From the NCBI RefSeq assembly GCF_026913205.2, contig NZ_CP168151.1, positions 496,001 through 560,000 of the forward strand: a stretch of 64,000 nucleotides of DNA, read 5' to 3'. The position numbers were made by a program, and so were the translations under genes. Position 1 is the stretch's first letter, and each line of letters starts with the position of its first letter. Of the stretch, positions 4,239 to 49,712 are shown piece by piece. The stretch comes from Lentilactobacillus sp. SPB1-3 (GTDB taxonomy: Bacteria > Bacillota > Bacilli > Lactobacillales > Lactobacillaceae). Below the pieces are notes generated by a model. It was not told the origin of the DNA and did no database searches. It saw only the letters and a program-made list of their open reading frames with translations.

Positions 4239-5534
4239 TTATGGATTTAAACGGTTCAACATTCTTGGGAATGGGATGACTTCTCGCAAATGATCTTGGA
4301 GGGTAATCCATGTTAGGAATCTCTCAAGTCCCATACCAAATCCAGAATGAGGAACTGCGCCATACCTGAGTAAATCAAGGTACCATTCATAGTTACTGAG
4401 GTCTTGGCCAGTTTCTTTTAACCGACCAAGGATGTAATCATAGTCGGCGGAACGTTCAGAACCACCAATGATTTCACCGTATCCTTCGGGTGCTAGTAGG
4501 TCTGCACAAACTACTAAATCGTCTCTAGTAGGGTGTGGTTGCATATAAAATGCCTTGATAGCTTTTGGATAATTCATTACGAATACTGGTTTGTCGAAAT
4601 GGTTGGCCAAGAAAGTTTCTTCGGGTGAACCAAAATCAATACCCCATTTGACATCAAAGCCGTTAGTTTGTAGTAGTTCGATCGCATCGTCATAAGAAAT
4701 ACGTGGGTATGGTAGTTGAGTGTATTTCTTGAGGACTTCAACGTCTCGATCCAAAATTTTTAATTCAGACTGACAATTATCAATTACGGCCTGAACCAGA
4801 TAAGCAATCATTTGTTCTTGCAGTTCCAAACTTTGGTCTTGATGCCACCAAGCCATTTCCGGTTCCAACTGCCAAAACTCAGTTAAATGACGACGAGTTT
4901 TTGATTTTTCGGCTCTAAAAGTTGGTCCGAGTGTATAAATCTTACCAAGTGCCATGGCACCAGCCTCACCATAAAGCTGACCGGTTTGAGAAAGATAGGC
5001 ATTTTTACCGAAATAATCTGTTTCGAATAATTCGGTGGTTCCTTCAGGAGCAGAACCAGTTAGAATAGGGGCATCAAACTTGGTGAATCCTTGTTGGTAA
5101 AAGAATTCGTTTGCTGCATGCAAAACTTCATTTCTAATCTTCATAATGGCGTTCGGCTTACTTGATCTTAACCATAGGTGGCGATGATCTAGTAGAAAGT
5201 CGATTCCATGTTCTTTTGGAGTGATGGGATAGTCTTCACTTTCACCAACGACTTCAAAATCAGTGATTTTAATTTCATATCCGAAGTGTGAACGACTATC
5301 TTCATGAATTTCACCAGTTACATATAGACTGGTTTCTTGGCGAAGTTCTTTTGCTTCAGTGAACTTTTCTTCGTCGATGCTGTTTTTTAAAACAACTCCT
5401 TGGAAAAATCCGCTTCCGTCACGGAGCTGAAGGAAGGCAATCTTTCCGCTACTGCGCTTGTTAGTTACCCAAACACCGATTCTAACGGTTTCGTTAACGT
5501 GTTTGGGTGAATCGATGATTCTGATGGTTTCCAA
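4239..5534 (-). CDS. asnS: Asparaginyl-tRNA synthetase
   Basis: Class IIb synthetase that charges tRNA-Asn with asparagine in the cytoplasm. The N-terminal OB-fold anticodon-binding domain is at about residues 15-100 ([20 protein letters not shown]). The flexible loop [16 protein letters not shown] (155-170) follows, then motif 2 starting FRAEKS (206) and motif 3 GFGMGLERF (398-406). The 431-residue length is normal for bacterial AsnRS. AsnRS is told from AspRS by the short length and absence of the bacterial GAD insertion. It starts 11 nt after asnA, so the two form one operon under an Asn-type T-box: one gene makes asparagine and the next uses it. Confidence 0.96.
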
Positions 5535-5545
5535 AAAAATTCCTC

Positions 5546-6553
5546 CTATAGAATATGAATTCCGGCAGCTTCACATTTTTCGATCATTTCATCGGGCCAA
5601 ACACTAGCTTGAACTTCACCGACGTGAGCCTTACCAAGTAGTAACATACATAAACGAGATTGGCCGATACCACCACCGATGGTGTAAGGGAGTTCTTTGT
5701 TCATCAATGCTTTGTGATATGGAAATTCTAAGCGATCTTCAGCGCCGGCCATTTTAAGCTGTTTAGCCATTGATTCTGGACTGACACGAATTCCCATACT
5801 TGAAACTTCAAGTGAACGTTGTAATGGTTCGTACCAGAACAAGATGTCACCGTTTAATTCCCAGTCATCATAGTCAGGTGCGCGACCATCATGCTTCTTA
5901 CCACTCTTCATAGGTCCACCAATCTTCATTAAGAAGACACAGCCAAGTTCTTTACAGATAGCATCTTCTCGTGATTGACGATCTAAATCAGGATAGCGAT
6001 CTTCTAGTTCTTGAGTTGTTACGAAGTGAATTTCATCTGGTAAGTGATGAACTGCTTCGGGGTATTTATACCAAACTTCGTGTTCCATATGTTTGATGAC
6101 TTTGAAGATTTGTCGAACAGTACTCTTTAAAGTTTCTTCGTTACGTTCTTCTTTTTTAATGATTTTTTCCCAATCCCATTGATCAACGTAGATTGAGTGG
6201 ACGTTATCTAAATCCTCATCCTTACGAATGGCGTTCATGTTAGTGTAAAGTCCAGTATGCATATCAAAGTTGAAACGTTTCAAAGCCCAGCGTTTCCACT
6301 TAGCAAGTGAGTGGACGATTTCAATAGTTTCGCCAGGAATTTCTTTCATGGTGAATGAAACAGGAGTTTCAACACCGTTTAAGTTGTCGTTCAATCCTGA
6401 TGATTTTTTGACCATCATTGGGGCAGATACTCTAGAAAGGTTCATTTGTTTTCCAAATTCATCTTGGAAAGTTTCTCGAATGTAGCGGATAGCTTCTTGA
6501 GTAGTCTTAACTGATAATTTAGGATCGTAATCTGTAGGAATAATTAATTGCAT
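5546..6553 (-). CDS. asnA: Aspartate-ammonia ligase (asparagine synthetase A)
   Basis: Makes asparagine from aspartate and ammonia with ATP cleavage to AMP. The protein is 335 residues and shares the class II synthetase fold. The core [14 protein letters not shown] (101-114) followed by [15 protein letters not shown] and the C-terminal [14 protein letters not shown] are characteristic of AsnA. Unlike AsnB it has no glutaminase domain, so free ammonia is the donor. It is the first gene of an operon with asnS, and the leader carries a T-box. Expression should therefore rise when uncharged tRNA-Asn accumulates. Confidence 0.97.
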
Positions 6554-6591: not shown

Positions 6592-6883
6592 AAAAAGCCT
6601 TTCATCCCCAGCCAAGGGACGAAAGACTTTTCGCGGTACCACCCAAGTTGCTTATCTAAAATAAGCCACCTCAATAAGAGTACTAACATACTCCACCGAG
6701 GGTAACGTTCCGGTTTTACGTCTGCTCCTACTTGAAGCCATTCCTGACTGGTTCAGAGAGAAACTAGAAAGTGTTTTTCAGATATTTCAAGAACTTATCA
6801 GGTTTCCACTAATCCCGACTCACTGGAAGGTTGAAATAACTTACTCGTCTTTCTTTGCGTTTTTTAATGTTTTCAAATTTACA
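6592..6883 (-). promoter_or_regulatory. T-box riboswitch (Asn) upstream of asnA-asnS
   Basis: On the minus strand the leader shows the T-box GGGTGGTACCGCG (6644-6632). It is followed by a strong terminator (arms about 6632-6617 and 6611-6596) with a T-run. In stem I the sequence TGAAAAACAC (6780-6771) places an AAC triplet at 6775-6773 where the specifier codon should be; AAC is an Asn codon, in agreement with the genes controlled. Binding of uncharged tRNA-Asn would stabilise the antiterminator. The family is certain from the T-box; the specifier is inferred from position. Confidence 0.92.
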
Positions 6884-6918: not shown

Positions 6919-7238
6919 GCGAGAAAAATAAAAAAGGTGATTTTTTGAAATGATTTTAATAATAAAACCAGCAGGAAAGCCTTGATTCTAAAGGGAATTA
7001 AGAGTGATAAATAAATTTTTCTTTTTTTATCTAAATTAAGTTGAGTTTCAGAGGTTTATATTAATATTTTTGAACAAATTATCAATTTTTAATCAAATAA
7101 ATGAATACGTGAAGATCATTAAGTCACTAAAAACCAGGCTACTTAGCTTACATATCAGTATCCATTAATTTTTCTGGACCAATATATAGTAGACTTTTTT
7201 ATTAATGATTAGATTCTAAAAGCCTTTTATTAAAAGTA
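6919..7238. other. AT-rich intergenic stretch without a recognisable gene
   Basis: About 320 bases between the asnA leader promoter and the liv promoter. Only ORFs of a few codons without convincing ribosome-binding sites occur on either strand, and no strong hairpin or repeat was seen. It may hold upstream regulatory sites for the liv promoter, but nothing specific can be supported. Confidence 0.5.
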
Positions 7239-7267
7239 TTGACATTTAATTAGAACATCCATATACT
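7239..7267 (+). promoter_or_regulatory. Promoter of the liv operon leader
   Basis: TTGACA (7239-7244), a 17-bp spacer and TATACT (7262-7267): near-consensus, with a start expected near 7274. This leaves a 330-nt leader before livJ. Confidence 0.85.
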
Positions 7268-7307
7268 TGGCCTATCCAATTAAATCTTAGACGAGAAGGT
7301 TACCAAC

Positions 7308-7430
7308 ATGACTATTAATAATCAACGCAATTCATATTCATATAAGTATCAACCTGTGGTAATCTCTGCAGTCCAAGATTTAGCCTTATTATTAAAGATG
7401 AAGGACCCGACTTTGATTAGGGAATTGTAA
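7308..7430 (+). CDS. Candidate leader peptide of the liv operon (40 residues)
   Basis: The ATG at 7308 has GAGAAGG 8 nt upstream and opens a 40-codon ORF that ends at TAA 7428. Twelve residues are Leu, Ile or Val, with the cluster DLALLLK at 24-30 read from TTA codons (7386-7394 is TTA-TTA-TTA). The ORF lies between a strong promoter and a terminator, upstream of a branched-chain amino-acid transporter, as classical attenuation peptides do. The TTA run is the start of a 15-nt segment that can pair with 7469-7483. It has no signal peptide and resembles no protein I know. Function as a sensor of leucine supply is inference. Confidence 0.55.
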   Translation: MTINNQRNSYSYKYQPVVISAVQDLALLLKMKDPTLIREL

Positions 7431-7535
7431 CATTCCTAAATTAATCAAACAGTTGAGCCCTTATTTTGCATCTTTAATGATGAGGGCTCGCTGGAAAATA
7501 TCCAAACCTCATTCGTTAAAGAATGAGGTTTTTTT
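7386..7535 (+). promoter_or_regulatory. Putative attenuator of the liv operon
   Basis: There are four pairing segments. Segment 7386-7400, inside the leader ORF, is complementary to 7469-7483 (13 Watson-Crick and 2 G-U pairs). GAGCCCT (7455-7461) pairs with AGGGCTC (7483-7489). ATGAGG (7480-7485) can also pair with CCTCAT (7507-7512), the 5' arm of the terminator at 7505-7530. Mutually exclusive pairings of this kind are what a ribosome-dependent attenuator needs. No structure was computed; the model rests on visible complementarity. Confidence 0.45.
7505..7535 (+). terminator. Intrinsic terminator ahead of livJ
   Basis: AACCTCATTC / GAATGAGGTT, a perfect 10-bp stem with loop GTTAAA followed by T-rich sequence, between the liv promoter and livJ. 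Confidence 0.88.
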
Positions 7536-7603
7536 CTTGCCCAAAATTCAAAGGAGGGAAGATATTGGGCTTCCAAATTAAAAAATGAAAGTAGGAAGAT
7601 CAC

Positions 7604-8797
7604 ATGAAAAAGGCCGTTAAAAAAATTACTTACTTCGCTTCAGTAGCAGCAATCGCAGTTATTTTTGCAGGGTGTAGTACTGCAACAACAAGTAGCAAAG
7701 GTAACCCAGTCACAGACAATACCATCAAAATCGGTGAAAATATGGAATTATCTGGTGCAGCTGGTGGCTACGGTAATCAAATGAATCAAGGAATCAAGAT
7801 GGCAGTTAACGAAATCAATCAAGTAGGCGGGGTTAACGTCAATGGCAAAAAGCAAAAGTTCAAGCTAATCGTTAGAGATAACAAGACATCAACTAACACA
7901 TCTGCTTCAGTTGCAACTCAGTTGGTCAACAACGATAAAGTCAACGCAATCGTGGGTACCGCAACGACCAATGCTGGTACTGCACAAATTCCTAATATCA
8001 CAAAAGCTGCGGTTCCGGCGGTAAGCCCATCAGCAACCGATCCCAATTTCACACTTCAAAAAAATGGCAAGGTTCAACCATATGTATTTAGAGCCTGTTA
8101 TCAAAATAATTTCCAAGGTGGGATTGGCGCCAAGTTTACTTACAACAACTTGAAAGCTAGAAGAGTAGCTATCTTATACGATAATTCCACCGACTATGGA
8201 ACTGGTTTGGAGAAGGCGTTTAAAGATACTTTTAAAGGCAAGGTCGTGGATACGCAAGGATTCACTGAAGGCGACAAGGACTTTAATGCCATTCTAACTT
8301 CGTTCAAAAACAAAAAGGTGGATGCAATCTATGTTCCTGGTTATTACACTGAAGTTGGTTTGATTATTAAACAAGCTCGTCAGGCAGGAATCAATGTCCC
8401 AATTATCGGTACCGATGGAATGGCTGATCCTAAACTGGCACAAATTGCTGGTAATCAGAATTCAAATAAGATCTATTACACAACACCATTTTCAACAAAG
8501 GCTTCTGAAAGTAATCCCGTGGCCAAGAAGTTCATGGCCGATTACCAGAAAAAGTACCATACAGAAGCACCAACTTTCTCAGCGCTTGCTTATGATTCAG
8601 TTAACATGATCAAACAAGCAATTGAAGATGAAAAATCGGCTGATTCAACCAAGATTGCTGAAGGGCTAAGCAAAATCAAGAATTTCGATGGAGTTACTGG
8701 AAAGATTACGATCAACAAACAACATGATCCCGAAAAGCCAATCGCAATTGAACAATTGACGAATGGCAAAGTTTCTAATACTTATGAAATCAAATAA
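7604..8797 (+). CDS. livJ: Branched-chain amino-acid ABC transporter, substrate-binding lipoprotein
   Basis: Extracellular receptor of a Leu/Ile/Val (HAAT family) ABC transporter. The basic start MKKAVKK and hydrophobic stretch run up to the lipobox IFAGC, so Cys24 becomes lipidated and anchors the mature protein to the membrane. The body is a Peripla_BP_6 type I binding protein: TIKIGENMELSGAAGGYG near its start and EAPTFSALAYDSVNMI near its end are typical. The length of 397 is normal. The ribosome-binding site AGGAAG is modest, while a stronger AAGGAGGG lies 45 nt further upstream. It is the first gene of livJHMGF-CBS. Substrate preference within branched-chain or other aliphatic amino acids cannot be read directly. 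Confidence 0.93.
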   Translation: MKKAVKKITYFASVAAIAVIFAGCSTATTSSKGNPVTDNTIKIGENMELSGAAGGYGNQMNQGIKMAVNEINQVGGVNVNGKKQKFKLIVRDNKTSTNTSASVATQLVNNDKVNAIVGTATTNAGTAQIPNITKAAVPAVSPSATDPNFTLQKNGKVQPYVFRACYQNNFQGGIGAKFTYNNLKARRVAILYDNSTDYGTGLEKAFKDTFKGKVVDTQGFTEGDKDFNAILTSFKNKKVDAIYVPGYYTEVGLIIKQARQAGINVPIIGTDGMADPKLAQIAGNQNSNKIYYTTPFSTKASESNPVAKKFMADYQKKYHTEAPTFSALAYDSVNMIKQAIEDEKSADSTKIAEGLSKIKNFDGVTGKITINKQHDPEKPIAIEQLTNGKVSNTYEIK

Positions 8798-8835: not shown

Positions 8836-9714
8836 TTGCAGACATTTTTTCAGCAGGTTATTAATGGCTTATCACTCGGAAGCATCTATGCCTTGCTTGC
8901 CCTAGGCTACACGATGGTTTATGGCATCATCAAACTGATTAATTTTGCTCACGGTGACATCTATATGTTGGGAGCCTTTTGGGGATACTACTCTATCAAT
9001 ACTTGGCATTTTAGCTTTATTGAAGCTTTGTTAAGTTCAATGATCGTGGGTGCAATCAGTGGTGTCGTGATTGAATATTTCGCTTATCGACCTTTACGAC
9101 ATGCTCCTCGAATCACTGCGTTGATTACTGCAATTGGAGTTTCATTTTTGTTAGAGAACGGAATGTCTTACTTCTTTACTTCTGATACGCGGGACTTTCC
9201 CCAAATTATCACCCAGCATAATTACAACATCGGTGGTGTTTTGATCTCGAATATTCAAATCCTGATTTTGGTCACCGCATGTGTTTTGATGATTCTTCTC
9301 CAATTAATTATTAAACGCACCAAGATGGGCAAAGCGATGCGAGCTGTTTCAGTTGATTCTGATGCTGCTGAAATGGTGGGAATTAACATTAATCGGACTA
9401 TTTCATTCACATTTGCCTTGGGCTCCTCACTCGCTGGAGCAGCTGGAGTATTGATTGGACTTTACTACAATTCGATCGATCCATTGATGGGGATGACACC
9501 AGGAATCAAAGCATTCGTAGCTGCGGTGCTAGGAGGAATCGGTTCGGTTCCAGGAGCATCAGTCGGTGGCTTCTTGATTGGAATCCTTGAAACACTCTTT
9601 CAATCAATTGGATTATCCGCATATAAAGATGCGGTTGTGTACGGAGTTTTAATTATTATTCTCTTGGTATTACCAGCAGGAATTTTTGGTAAAAACATGA
9701 AGGAAAAAGTGTAG
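8836..9714 (+). CDS. livH: Branched-chain amino-acid ABC transporter permease
   Basis: Inner-membrane permease of the LivH type, 292 residues with about eight hydrophobic spans. The motifs LGYTMVYGIIKLINFAHGD (22-40) and GMTPGIKAFVAAVLGGIGS near residue 220 are typical of this half. The start codon is TTG at 8836, chosen because AAGGAGGAG lies 6 nt upstream and no ATG fits. It forms the translocation channel with LivM. It lies 38 nt after livJ and directly abuts livM. Confidence 0.95.
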   Translation: MQTFFQQVINGLSLGSIYALLALGYTMVYGIIKLINFAHGDIYMLGAFWGYYSINTWHFSFIEALLSSMIVGAISGVVIEYFAYRPLRHAPRITALITAIGVSFLLENGMSYFFTSDTRDFPQIITQHNYNIGGVLISNIQILILVTACVLMILLQLIIKRTKMGKAMRAVSVDSDAAEMVGININRTISFTFALGSSLAGAAGVLIGLYYNSIDPLMGMTPGIKAFVAAVLGGIGSVPGASVGGFLIGILETLFQSIGLSAYKDAVVYGVLIIILLVLPAGIFGKNMKEKV

Positions 9715-10677
9715 GTGAAACTGATGAAAATAAATTGGAAAACCAATCTGGCATGGTTAGTAATCATGGTTGCTGGCTTTTACTTGATGAATACGCTGAT
9801 TTTAGTGGGCGTCATCAATGCCTTTATTGAAAATATGCTGGTGATGATTGGTATCAACATTATTTTGGCGACAGGTTTGAACTTGATCATTGGTTTTGCT
9901 GGTCAATTCTCATTAGGTCATGCTGGGTTTATGGCTATCGGCGCATATGCGACGGCGATTATTACTAGTAGTGTTGAAACACCAGTTGGCTTTTACATTG
10001 CCTTAATCGTGGGCATTGTTTTGACGATCATAGTGGCACTGATCGTTGGTATCCCGACTTTGCGTTTGCGAGGCGATTACTTAGCAATTGCTACTATGGG
10101 TGCTGCTGAAATTATTCGCATCATCATTAACAACTTAAAAATCACAGGAGGGGCGGCAGGAATTTTCAATATTCCCGCACTAGCCAATTGGCCAACCGTT
10201 TATGTGATGGTTTGTCTCACAACAATCGTAATTTTGAACTTTATTCGAAGCCAAGGTGGCCGAGCAGTTAAGTCTGTTCGAGAAGATGAAATTGCCGCCG
10301 AATCTGTTGGTATCAATGTTTTTAAATGGAAACTATCTGCTTTTGTACTTGGAGCATCCACAGCCGCAATTGCCGGCTCACTTCGAGCATCTTATCTTCA
10401 GACGATCAGTCCGAATGATTTTAATATCATGGCATCTATTTCTGTACTGATTATTGTTGTCCTTGGTGGTGTTGGCAGTATTACAGGAACGTTTGTAGCT
10501 GCAGTTGTTCTGGGAGTTATTGACACAGTTTTACAAAATTTTGGCGCTTTGCGAATGGTCATTTACGCACTGGCCCTGATTTTGATTATGGTTTTCAAAC
10601 CATCAGGATTACTAGGGACATGGGAATTATCACTCGCCAAAATATTTAACCGAAAACCAAAGGAGGTGTCTGAATGA
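9715..10677 (+). CDS. livM: Branched-chain amino-acid ABC transporter permease
   Basis: Second permease subunit, LivM type, up to 320 residues with about eight to ten membrane spans. NLIIGFAGQFSLGHAGFMAI and LRLRGDYLAIATMGAAEIIR are the family signatures, the second being the cytoplasmic coupling loop. The annotated GTG at 9715 follows the livH stop at once. The ATG at 9724, with AGGTG upstream, is an equally good start and would shorten the protein by three residues. The 3' end overlaps livG by 4 nt (ATGA), so the two are probably translationally coupled. Confidence 0.94.
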   Translation: MKLMKINWKTNLAWLVIMVAGFYLMNTLILVGVINAFIENMLVMIGINIILATGLNLIIGFAGQFSLGHAGFMAIGAYATAIITSSVETPVGFYIALIVGIVLTIIVALIVGIPTLRLRGDYLAIATMGAAEIIRIIINNLKITGGAAGIFNIPALANWPTVYVMVCLTTIVILNFIRSQGGRAVKSVREDEIAAESVGINVFKWKLSAFVLGASTAAIAGSLRASYLQTISPNDFNIMASISVLIIVVLGGVGSITGTFVAAVVLGVIDTVLQNFGALRMVIYALALILIMVFKPSGLLGTWELSLAKIFNRKPKEVSE

Positions 10678-11453
10678 CAAACTTGCTGAAAGTTGATCAC
10701 TTAATTAAAAATTTTGGTGGTTTAACGGCCGTTTCAGATGTCTCGATGTATTTAGATAGTGATGAGTTAGTTGCCTTGATTGGACCTAATGGGGCCGGTA
10801 AAACCACACTGTTTACCTTACTGACAGGTGTGATTTCACCTTCGTCAGGTTCAATAGTTCTTACAGGAAAAAACGGCACCCAGTCTTTGAATAAGGTACC
10901 AGCATATAAAGTAGCGCAAATGGGAATGTCTCGAACATTTCAAAATATTCGGCTGTTCAAAGATTTATCAGTTTTAGACAATGTGATGATTGCAATGACT
11001 AGTCGATATAATGAAGGATTCATTCATTCAATCTTTAGAACACTGCATTTTTATAAGACTGAAGATGAAATGAAGCGAGAGGCGATTGAATTATTGGCGA
11101 TCTTTGATTTGACTGATCAATTAGATACTAAAGCCAAGAACTTACCATACGGAGTTCAACGGCGATTAGAAATCGTTCGTGCCTTAGCTACTAAACCAGA
11201 GATTTTATTTTTAGATGAACCAGCTGCAGGGATGAACCCTGAAGAAACTGCTGAATTAACTCGTTTAATCTTAAAGATTCAAAAAACATTTCATATTACG
11301 ATTCTATTGATCGAGCATGACATGTCATTAGTCATGAATGTGGCTCAGAGAATATATGTACTGAACCATGGCTCGTTGCTTGCTTCAGGTAGCCCGGAAT
11401 ATATTAAACACAATCAAGATGTTATTACCGCATACTTGGGAGAGGAAGGTTAA
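10674..11453 (+). CDS. livG: Branched-chain amino-acid ABC transporter ATPase
   Basis: Cytoplasmic ATPase of 259 residues. Walker A is GPNGAGKT (37-44), Walker B ILFLDEP (177-183), and the switch His is 215 in LIEHDM. The ABC signature is LPYGVQRRLEI rather than LSGGQ. LivG proteins usually read LPYGxQRRLEI, so this is a family trait and not damage. AAAGGAGG precedes the ATG, which overlaps the livM stop. It should form a heterodimer with LivF to energise LivHM. Confidence 0.96.
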   Translation: MTNLLKVDHLIKNFGGLTAVSDVSMYLDSDELVALIGPNGAGKTTLFTLLTGVISPSSGSIVLTGKNGTQSLNKVPAYKVAQMGMSRTFQNIRLFKDLSVLDNVMIAMTSRYNEGFIHSIFRTLHFYKTEDEMKREAIELLAIFDLTDQLDTKAKNLPYGVQRRLEIVRALATKPEILFLDEPAAGMNPEETAELTRLILKIQKTFHITILLIEHDMSLVMNVAQRIYVLNHGSLLASGSPEYIKHNQDVITAYLGEEG

Positions 11454-11455
11454 TC

Positions 11456-12160
11456 ATGCTGAAAGTAGATAATTTAAGCGTCAATTATGGCGTGATTAAC
11501 GCTGTTAAAGATGTTTCGTTTGAAGTCAATCAAGGAGAAATCGTTTCTTTGATTGGTGCTAATGGAGCTGGAAAAACCACCATTTTAAAAACTATTTCGG
11601 GTTTACTTAAAGCCAAGAGTGGCTCAATTACCTATCTCGGTAAGAATATTCAAAAGATAAGTGCTCCTAAAATTGTCGGTGCCGGAATTTCTCAAGTTCC
11701 AGAGGGACGGCACGTGTTTGCTGGATTATCAGTGATGGAAAACTTGCAAATGGGGGCTTTCTTAACTAAAGGTAAACAACAGGTTCAAAAGAATTATGCT
11801 CAGGTATTTGAGCGGTTCCCTATATTGAAGGAACGGATAAATCAAGATGCCGCGACGTTATCAGGTGGCGAACAACAAATGTTAGTTATGGGGCGTGCTC
11901 TGATGGCCAATCCGAAATTAATTTTGTTAGATGAGCCTTCAATGGGGTTAGCACCGATTTTTATTAATGAAATTTTCGATATTATCAAAGAGATTAATCA
12001 AGCTGGTACTACGGTGCTTCTGATTGAACAGAACGCTAAGAAAGCATTATCGATCTCTGATCGAGCTTACGTTGTAGCGACTGGTGAAATTCAATTGACC
12101 GGAACCGGTGACGAACTATTAGCTAATAGCGACGTTCAAAAAGCATACTTAGGAGGCTAA
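11456..12160 (+). CDS. livF: Branched-chain amino-acid ABC transporter ATPase
   Basis: Second ATPase, 234 residues, LivF type. Walker A is GANGAGKT (34-41), the signature LSGGEQQ is at 135-141, Walker B LILLDEP at 155-161, and the switch region reads LIEQN with Gln in place of the usual His, as is common in LivF. VPEGRHVF (81-88) is also a LivF trait. It starts 2 nt after the livG stop. The intact signature here complements the degenerate one in LivG, giving a normal asymmetric pair. Confidence 0.96.
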   Translation: MLKVDNLSVNYGVINAVKDVSFEVNQGEIVSLIGANGAGKTTILKTISGLLKAKSGSITYLGKNIQKISAPKIVGAGISQVPEGRHVFAGLSVMENLQMGAFLTKGKQQVQKNYAQVFERFPILKERINQDAATLSGGEQQMLVMGRALMANPKLILLDEPSMGLAPIFINEIFDIIKEINQAGTTVLLIEQNAKKALSISDRAYVVATGEIQLTGTGDELLANSDVQKAYLGG

Positions 12161-12164
12161 CAAG

Positions 12165-12824
12165 ATGAGTGTAGCGGATTTCATGACCAAAAAAGTTAGT
12201 ACAGTGACACCAGATACAAAAATCAACGTAGCAATTAGTATAATGAAGGAGCAAAACATTCATCGGTTACCAGTATTAAGTAGTGGCAAATTAGTGGGAA
12301 TTATTACTCAAAGAGACATTGAGAGGGCAACACCTTCAGAGGCTACGAGTTTGTCCATCTATGAAATAACGTATCTATTGAATAAGATGACAGTAGTGGA
12401 TGTGATGTCTAAAAATGTCAAAACAGTTAATCAAGACGCATTTTTAGAAGATGCAATTTACGTGATGAGACAATCTCAAATTGGGGTTCTGCCAGTTATG
12501 AATGATGATGAATTGGTTGGCATCATTACTAATAATGATATTTTAGATGCCTTTTTGGATGTCACTGACTATGCGGAGAACGCCACAGCCGTCCAAGTTT
12601 TTGTGGCTCAGGATCATCCCGGCATTATTTTTGAAATTGGCGAGATAATGAAAAACAATGACTTAAATATTCAAACTTTAATGGTTACCCATCAAGATGC
12701 TTTAAAAATCGTGGAAATTCATGTTGATCAAGTTGATGGTCAACAGGTAGTTAATAAGTTAAGCGAAGCGGGTTTCAAGGCTCAAGAAGCCAAGCATTAT
12801 AAAGAACAGGTATCAGATCTTTAA
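12165..12824 (+). CDS. CBS-ACT domain protein (AcuB-like)
   Basis: A 219-residue cytoplasmic protein with two CBS domains (about 6-57, starting VADFMTKKVSTVTPD, and about 76-133, VVDVMSKNVKTVNQD) and a C-terminal ACT-like domain (about 142-208). CBS pairs bind adenine nucleotides, and ACT domains commonly bind amino acids. It starts 4 nt after livF and is the last gene before the operon terminator, so it is made with the transporter. A role in sensing energy state or branched-chain amino acids to adjust uptake is attractive but is inference. The similarity to AcuB is in architecture; nothing shows a role in acetoin use. Confidence 0.85.
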   Translation: MSVADFMTKKVSTVTPDTKINVAISIMKEQNIHRLPVLSSGKLVGIITQRDIERATPSEATSLSIYEITYLLNKMTVVDVMSKNVKTVNQDAFLEDAIYVMRQSQIGVLPVMNDDELVGIITNNDILDAFLDVTDYAENATAVQVFVAQDHPGIIFEIGEIMKNNDLNIQTLMVTHQDALKIVEIHVDQVDGQQVVNKLSEAGFKAQEAKHYKEQVSDL

Positions 12825-28344: not shown

Positions 28345-28380
28345 ATCCTTGTAATAAAATTTAATAATAAATATTCGAAG

Positions 28381-28598
28381 TAGAGGCGCGAACATTAAGA
28401 GTAACTTTCAGGAGCTGGAATAGAAGCGATGACTGAAAGTGAAAGGGATGTTCGCCGAAATTGATAATTGTCTTTCCATTTATCAATTGGGGCTTAACTC
28501 AATAAGTTAAGAACTGTCGTAGTTTTGATACTACGGGGTGCTATCAAGATGTTGAAATTAAGGGACCTTCTTCAATATTCTTGAGGAAGGTCTTTTTT
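28381..28598 (+). promoter_or_regulatory. Lysine riboswitch (L box) with terminator
   Basis: The conserved L-box core is present in order: AGAGGCGCG (28383), AAGAGTAACTTTCAGGAG (28398-28415), GAAAGGGATGTTCGCCGAA (28442-28460), GGGGCTTAACTC (28490-28501) and GAACTGTCGTAG near 28512-28523. The intrinsic terminator ACCTTCTTCAA / TTGAGGAAGGT (28565-28591) with six T completes it. Lysine binding should favour the terminator and shut off the permease gene downstream. It explains the whole 355-base gap between the two genes. Confidence 0.95.
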
Positions 28599-49553: not shown

Positions 49554-49712
49554 ATTCAAGTAATTGTTTTTAACGGGTTACTATGCTCAAAAAATGATAC
49601 ATGATAGCTTTGATGTGAAAGGTTGCGACACACCCGGATGCTTTGCCATGGATGCGGCGGTAATTTTCACGGAGTTAGTCATATTTTTAAAATAGACGAA
49701 GGAGGGAACACA

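Follow-up and report, generated by a model that had tools for sequence, protein, structure and literature searches.

The leader that precedes the livJHMGF operon of Lentilactobacillus sp. SPB1-3 is, judging from comparative sequence analysis, very probably a ribosome-mediated transcription attenuator that reads the leucine supply. We have analyzed a stretch of 64,000 nucleotides of this genome (contig NZ_CP168151.1, positions 496,001 to 560,000; hereafter the window), for which an earlier note had proposed such a control before livJ. Comparison with related leaders establishes a leader ORF with a run of Leu codons, helices that compete with each other, a terminator and leucine-related genes downstream; from these we infer the steps taken by the ribosome. 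The features are collected in Table 1. The succession of promoter, ORF, terminator and livJ described in the earlier note was found correct in its coordinates by sequence checks.

Table 1. Features of the liv leader and operon, in positions of the window
Feature	Position	Strand	Basis
Sigma-70 type promoter	7239-7267	+	TTGACA-17-TATACT, 11/12 consensus bases
Ribosome-binding site AGAAGG of the leader ORF	7294-7299	+	Sequence
Leader peptide ORF	7308-7430	+	ATG, 40 codons, MTINNQRNSYSYKYQPVVISAVQDLALLLKMKDPTLIREL
Regulatory Leu codons TTA GCC TTA TTA TTA	7380-7394	+	Sequence
Strand A, within the ORF, partner of B when free of the ribosome	7382-7400	+	Fold, co-variation
Strand P (AAGGACCCGAC), partner of C	7401-7411	+	Co-variation
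Central hairpin between P and C (approximate ends), stop codon in the loop	7412-7448	+	Fold
Strand C (GTTGAGCCCTTATT), partner of P or B	7452-7465	+	Co-variation; C:B unsupported in A4 fixed columns
Strand B, core 7479-7487 (GATGAGGGC), contested by A, C and T1	7469-7490	+	Co-variation
Intrinsic terminator	stem 7504-7531, with T run to 7535	+	Terminator scan
Strand T1, 5' arm of the terminator and antiterminator partner of B	7506-7514	+	Co-variation
Strand T2, 3' arm of the terminator	7521-7529	+	Terminator scan, co-variation
livJ, branched-chain amino acid ABC transporter substrate-binding protein	7604-8797	+	Pfam PF13458
livH permease	8836-9714	+	PF02653
livM permease	9715-10677	+	PF02653
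livG ATPase	10674-11453	+	PF00005, PF12399
livF ATPase	11456-12160	+	PF00005

The leader DNA matched 16 of the 60 genomes searched, its own included, and the core motif was present in 14. A 28-base pattern gave 11 loci of named genera, nine of Lentilactobacillus and two of Paucilactobacillus. We built an RNA covariance model (R1) from 14 loci (alignment A1), which matched 105 of 397 Lactobacillaceae genomes at E<=0.01, the weak matches being partly spurious. From these, 90 R1 loci were taken, leaving out weaker or antisense places, and L117 and L119-L123 were dropped by eye before counting because they lack the strands and the frame encoding Leu-Leu-Leu (LLL). The 84 loci kept, from 72 genomes, were aligned with MAFFT and fitted to no structure (alignment A4). 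When R1 was run on 395 genomes of the order there were 12 matches at E<=1e-5, all of them in the own family (the search output does not show what share of this set came from outside it).

Around the leader, the TTGAC of the first promoter hexamer is invariant across A1, and the AGAAGG of the window is weaker than AGGAGG, found at the same place in 11 of the 14 loci. The terminator scan returned two terminator-like sites where shuffles lead to expect 0.5, and both are the two strands of a single hairpin; a T run (at least four T within eight bases past the stem) follows in all 84 kept loci. The product of livJ had its best NCBIfam match in NF011933, under the cut-off of that model, and the names livH, livM, livG and livF were assigned from gene order. 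Four bases past livF starts a gene (12165-12824) for a CBS-domain protein with a sub-cut-off ACT match, and it may form part of the operon.

Taken alone, a 40-codon ORF with a run of TTA would count for little; its conservation over 84 loci together with the co-variation described below takes it well past chance. In all 84 kept loci the Leu run is read in a frame that begins from a start codon with a ribosome-binding-like site, and the same test gave 0 and 2 loci for the two other frames. The run (TTA at 7380-7382 and TTATTATTA at 7386-7394 in the window) begins 14 to 26 codons after the ORF start. Three adjacent codons read Leu-Leu-Leu in 83 of the 84, written in eight different triples (TTATTATTA in 56, TTGTTGTTG in 13, CTACTACTA in 8, plus five rarer ones); the single exception, L118, encodes Val-Leu-Ile. 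The N-terminal part of the peptide is variable, as expected if the codon run alone matters. In L050 and L053 the frame changes just past LLL, giving the peptide another end, and most bases of P are retained. By this comparison the leader ORF behaves as coding sequence, and the leader ORF proposed in the earlier note passes this test, the frame through the run being open in every kept locus and altered only behind it.

The RNA from 7274 to 7540 is predicted to fold at -79.1 kcal/mol against -48.5 in shuffles (z -7.5, none of the 200 shuffles as low). Its strands compete for one another: A:B, C:B and B:T1 over B, P:C and C:B over C, and B:T1 and T1:T2 over T1. Strand B is purine-rich and its rivals A, C and T1 are pyrimidine-rich. 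The two complementarities listed in the earlier note (7386-7400 with 7469-7483, and 7480-7485 with 7507-7512) are correct and the core of its three-strand model holds, but it had missed P and C, both of which co-vary. P and C pair together, C also pairs with the antiterminator strand B, and in the class of leaders found before leuA, described below, they carry the switching logic. The central hairpin differs in sequence among relatives and, by eye, appears refolded.

Our analysis of co-variation on A4 gave paired cells of 86.0% for A:B, 94.1% for P:C, 98.5% for B:T1 and 99.2% for T1:T2. The corresponding scores were.344,.330,.189 and.268, against.243,.233,.155 and.140 in shuffled alignments. 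None of 500 shuffles reached the score in any of the four cases, and all four scores also exceed every slid control. Two coarser measures (both-side changes and further pair types) were level with shuffles for A:B, P:C and B:T1 and stood out for T1:T2 only. The three pairings named in the earlier note, A:B, B:T1 and T1:T2, are thus co-varying by score, but the first two of them fail on the coarsest measures.

The case of C:B is different. In the fixed columns of A4 it was paired in 81.9% of cells and its score of.168 was reached by 497 of 500 shuffles and topped by one slid control. Strand B contains G runs two to four bases long, and by eye the register of C:B shifts by one base. We have used a register-free test, in which the duplex of each strand with its own partner is compared with the duplexes formed with partners from other groups (15 genus-and-target groups). 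No permutation among 5000 was as good for A:B, P:C, C:B or T1:T2, and 6 were for B:T1, with the reservation, valid also for the shuffles, that relatedness is not wholly removed. For pairs outside the model the numbers were 824 (P:B), 2174 (A:C), 323 (P:T1), 3870 (C:T2) and 936 (A:T2) of 5000. The native duplex was better than the swapped ones in 77 (A:B), 78 (P:C), 72 (C:B), 83 (T1:T2) and 40 (B:T1) of the 84 rows, B:T1 being slightly worse than swapped in the genus of the window. Despite the failure in fixed columns, C:B finds support in this test and in the alignment of the leuA class (below).

The mechanism that we propose would work as follows. When charged leucyl-tRNA is short, the ribosome would halt in the UUA run, covering A and leaving P free. 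P could then pair with C, leaving B to T1, so that the terminator would be blocked and the RNA polymerase would enter livJ (ON). With plentiful leucine the ribosome would reach the stop codon, where it would be off A in the liv class and covering P in the leuA class; C, or the uncovered A, would take B, and T1:T2 would form (OFF). Without translation the window's leader would be OFF by default, A:B enclosing P:C with the terminator intact, and the predicted ribosome-free fold has indeed A:B around P:C and the terminator formed.

Predicted folds with a masked ribosome agree with these steps in the leuA-class loci. The assumed footprint takes in the first base of the P-site codon with 14 bases on its 5' side and 15 on its 3' side, and B:T1 was scored as formed with at least four pairs. 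In the 14 leuA-class loci of A4, B:T1 was formed in 14, 13 and 6 with the ribosome on the first, second and third Leu codon respectively, in 3 with it at the stop and in 8 with no ribosome. In the 70 other loci, which include L075 (before an oligopeptide-binding protein) and L011 (at a contig end), the numbers were 31, 21, 13, 7 and 14, in the same order. From the first Leu codon to the stop, B:T1 loses more than half a pair in 38 of these 70, with no locus showing a rise; for the leuA class there are 12 such losses and one rise among the 14. Since B:T1 forms without ribosome in 8 of the 14 leuA-class loci, the default OFF state would not be general.

The window's own leader is less clear-cut. 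With a stalled ribosome its equilibrium fold prefers C:B and B:T1 is absent. When the ON state is forced, it lies 3.5 kcal/mol above the preferred fold as long as T2 has yet to be transcribed (-31.0 vs -34.5), and 8.3 above it once T2 is there. Either the energies are off, or P:C is held kinetically, or the choice between A:B and B:T1 alone decides. The reading of leucine attenuation put forward in the earlier note is supported by comparison, but the equilibrium fold of the window alone does not give the ON state. The third of these options would mean that, in the window's genus, a switch of three strands (A:B against B:T1) suffices and that P:C and C:B are side products. We regard this as a minority possibility that deserves some weight: native A:B and C:B duplexes in the genus are about equal (-19.5 and -19.9 kcal/mol), and a ribosome at the stop codon (assumed footprint 7411-7440) would hardly cover P, most of which lies outside. 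What speaks against side products is that P:C and C:B co-vary across groups and that within the genus of the window both native duplexes are stronger than the swapped ones. The attenuator with P and C as working strands is the reading that we keep.

Of the 84 A4 loci, 14 sit before leuA. There the stop codon comes directly after the Leu run, and P, though no longer inside the ORF, is retained together with C, B, T1 and T2. With the stop in this position the switch would have to tell a stalled ribosome from a finishing one within about three codons. A model built from leuA-class leaders alone (R2) matched 59 of the 397 family genomes at E<=1e-4. Of the 52 new loci read, 51 have an ORF that carries a ribosome-binding-like site and terminates at the expected place, and in 46 the ORF closes with LLL followed by the stop. 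In the resulting alignment A6 (65 loci, with L141 left out, 63 of them distinct and 14 shared with A4), C:B was paired in 94.5% of cells, B:T1 in 94.6% and P:C in 91.7%, and none of 500 shuffles reached the score of any of the three; for P:C on A6 both coarser measures (counts of pairs or of pair types) were level with shuffles. R2 also finds the leader of the window (7410-7546, E 4.8e-5), which links the livJ and leuA classes. As for leuA in the window's own genome, a single search run without positive control gave no match, and we place no weight on it.

Both searches used the RNA only. The nearest recognised gene in 136 loci was livJ in 68, leuA in 49 and leuB in 11, that is, one of these three in 128 of the 134 loci with a readable target. 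The others were an MFS transporter (2), a family-3 solute-binding protein (2), an oligopeptide-binding protein (1) and a PEP-mutase-like protein (1), besides two contig ends. With livH called at E<=1e-40, 110 of the 397 family genomes have the gene, and 69 of these 110 carry a livJ-type leader (one cut by a contig end), so that the remark of the earlier note that such a control would be unusual for a lactobacillus does not hold.

Of the 41 genomes left, 19 were sampled, and together with G112 they gave 20 more livH regions for inspection. A weaker R1 match lies in place in 7 of them (E<=4e-4), and in 11 no such leader was recognised; one of these 11, L196, has an ORF with LLLNLLLI. In two regions of another genus (L193 and L194) there is a livJ-like gene preceded by AGGAGG and an ORF ending in QALLLLLML, with no R1 match better than E 0.8; these are perhaps independent or strongly diverged leucine attenuators. 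Besides, in another genus two liv leaders are preceded, at a distance of about 400 bases, by a match to Rfam RF02840 (Ref68, Lacto-3 RNA; L203:1096-1200 and L204:1952-2060).

A few leaders of the same kind carry Ile or Val codons (ILAVILI, VLII or LIII in L181, L188, L118 and L205) and stand before a family-3 solute-binding protein or livJ; in both loci before the former the leader ends in ILAVILI. The specificity for the amino acid seems to drift among these few members, a possible drift that we draw from their codons. The leucine leader of L075 precedes an oligopeptide-binding protein (best NCBIfam match Opp4A, under cut-off), and in that genome peptide uptake may be under leucine control.

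The peptide itself, and not its codons, could be what stops the ribosome, its conserved end LALLLKMKDPT arresting on a small molecule. The stretch QDLALLLKMKDPTL is almost fixed within the genus of the window, as such an arrest would have it. This fixation is, though, explained by the pairing of A and P. In L050 and L053 the frame shifts behind LLL and the RNA stays, with most P bases in place, the leuA class stops directly after LLL, and the N-terminal parts differ while the Leu run begins after anything from 14 to 26 codons. Nascent-chain arrest is for these reasons mostly rejected, and we consider it quite improbable. Slightly less credible still is a leader that senses a general slowing of translation and not leucine specifically. 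Any stall within the Leu run would cover A, and the leader reported to act in this way on a Bacillus subtilis ABC multidrug transporter provides a precedent (PMC4191407); the persistence of LLL in all kept loci but one and the predominance of leuA, leuB or livJ as the next gene point to leucine. Stalling at empty Leu codons remains our preferred reading.

A metabolite-binding or tRNA-binding leader with an incidental ORF is the least plausible of all: a T-box and a lysine riboswitch do exist elsewhere in the window, but no Rfam family passes its cut-off at this locus and the Leu frame with its start is kept without exception. The Rfam search at the window's leader was run with gathering and with permissive thresholds, and on the leaders of 11 relatives it gave no match up to E 0.1. 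The permissive matches at this leader were discarded, all being under their cut-offs; the best was an antisense plant microRNA model (E 0.00028). The T-box reads the tRNA directly, without an ORF. As proposed for the present leaders, it acts by antitermination ahead of amino acid genes and responds to the charging of tRNA. In lactobacilli, some transporters of branched-chain amino acids are under the control of T-box leaders (RF00230; PMC2494555). There is none at 7200-7640 up to E 10. A single T-box in the window exceeds the cut-off, at 6612-6866 on the minus strand (112.7 bits), and it reads towards the genes at 5546-6553 and 4239-5534, which from their protein sequences we take to be asnA-like and asnS-like. 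The lysine riboswitch is at 28373-28551 (132.3 bits), and a weak S10 ribosomal protein leader of the Clostridia type lies at 49602-49699 (36.8 bits, cut-off 35.1).

The leuL attenuator is a classical switch of this sort, with a leader peptide of Leu codons, alternative hairpins, a terminator and leuA downstream. Leu_leader (RF00512), which describes leuL of leuABCD in Escherichia coli and Salmonella, shares the first three with our leaders (PMC6123439), and leuA downstream with one class of them. It differs in that the commonest target here is a transporter operon and that the stop of the leuA class comes directly after the Leu run. RF00512 gave nothing over its cut-off in 8 family genomes and no weak match at these leaders; in the same search one of 14 control genomes passed the cut-off (which one is not shown), and Escherichia coli was among the 8 that responded. 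Another family of peptide-leader type is leu-phe_leader (RF01743). This element, too, comes from a lactic acid bacterium, and PMC2864571 tabulates it for Lactococcus lactis only. In the 8 family genomes RF01743 had no match at these leaders and its sole match elsewhere was at E 0.72; again one of 14 control genomes was over the cut-off (not shown which), Lactococcus lactis being among the 3 that responded.

A further comparison is the ilvD attenuator of Staphylococcus aureus, also of a Firmicute, with a leader peptide of Leu and Ile codons, a terminator and an antiterminator, whose response to leucine has experimental support. Compared by its description in PMC5794164, it differs in serving a biosynthetic operon and in mixing Ile with Leu codons. 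There are known or proposed cases of leader-peptide attenuation of branched-chain biosynthesis in enterobacteria, Staphylococcus aureus, Listeria, Lactococcus, Corynebacterium and Streptococcus (PMC5794164 and PMC6123439), the latter source also placing CodY together with attenuation on biosynthesis in other Gram positives. A survey of 2013 based on Rfam only suggested a gamma-proteobacterial origin for amino acid attenuators (PMC3766115). Our literature search, which left subscription papers mostly outside, found no leader-peptide attenuator before liv or leu genes of Lactobacillaceae, judged by titles and the openings of abstracts, and an older report is possible. The family of leaders is apparently undescribed, its kind of switch is already known and its distribution is wider than the earlier note supposed.

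Taken together, we lean towards the following view, with some reserve. An undescribed leucine leader family of the Lactobacillaceae would tie uptake (liv, sometimes oligopeptide-binding, MFS and amino acid ABC genes) and synthesis (leuA, leuB) to the charging of leucyl-tRNA through strand B, contested by A, C and T1. In its leuA class the separation of stalled from finishing ribosomes would be as narrow as stated above, and the amino acid read seems to drift while the RNA framework stays fixed. Such a family would merit an Rfam entry. Its many natural sequences, once aligned, show a single strand co-varying with three rivals and are well suited to tests of co-transcriptional folding, and the natural variants in stop position and from Leu to Ile or Val codons to tests of attenuator sensitivity. 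Many lactobacilli import branched-chain amino acids instead of making them. If our reading is true, an additional translation-based sensor of leucine would act on liv, leuA and leuB throughout the family, with relevance to growth in food fermentations.
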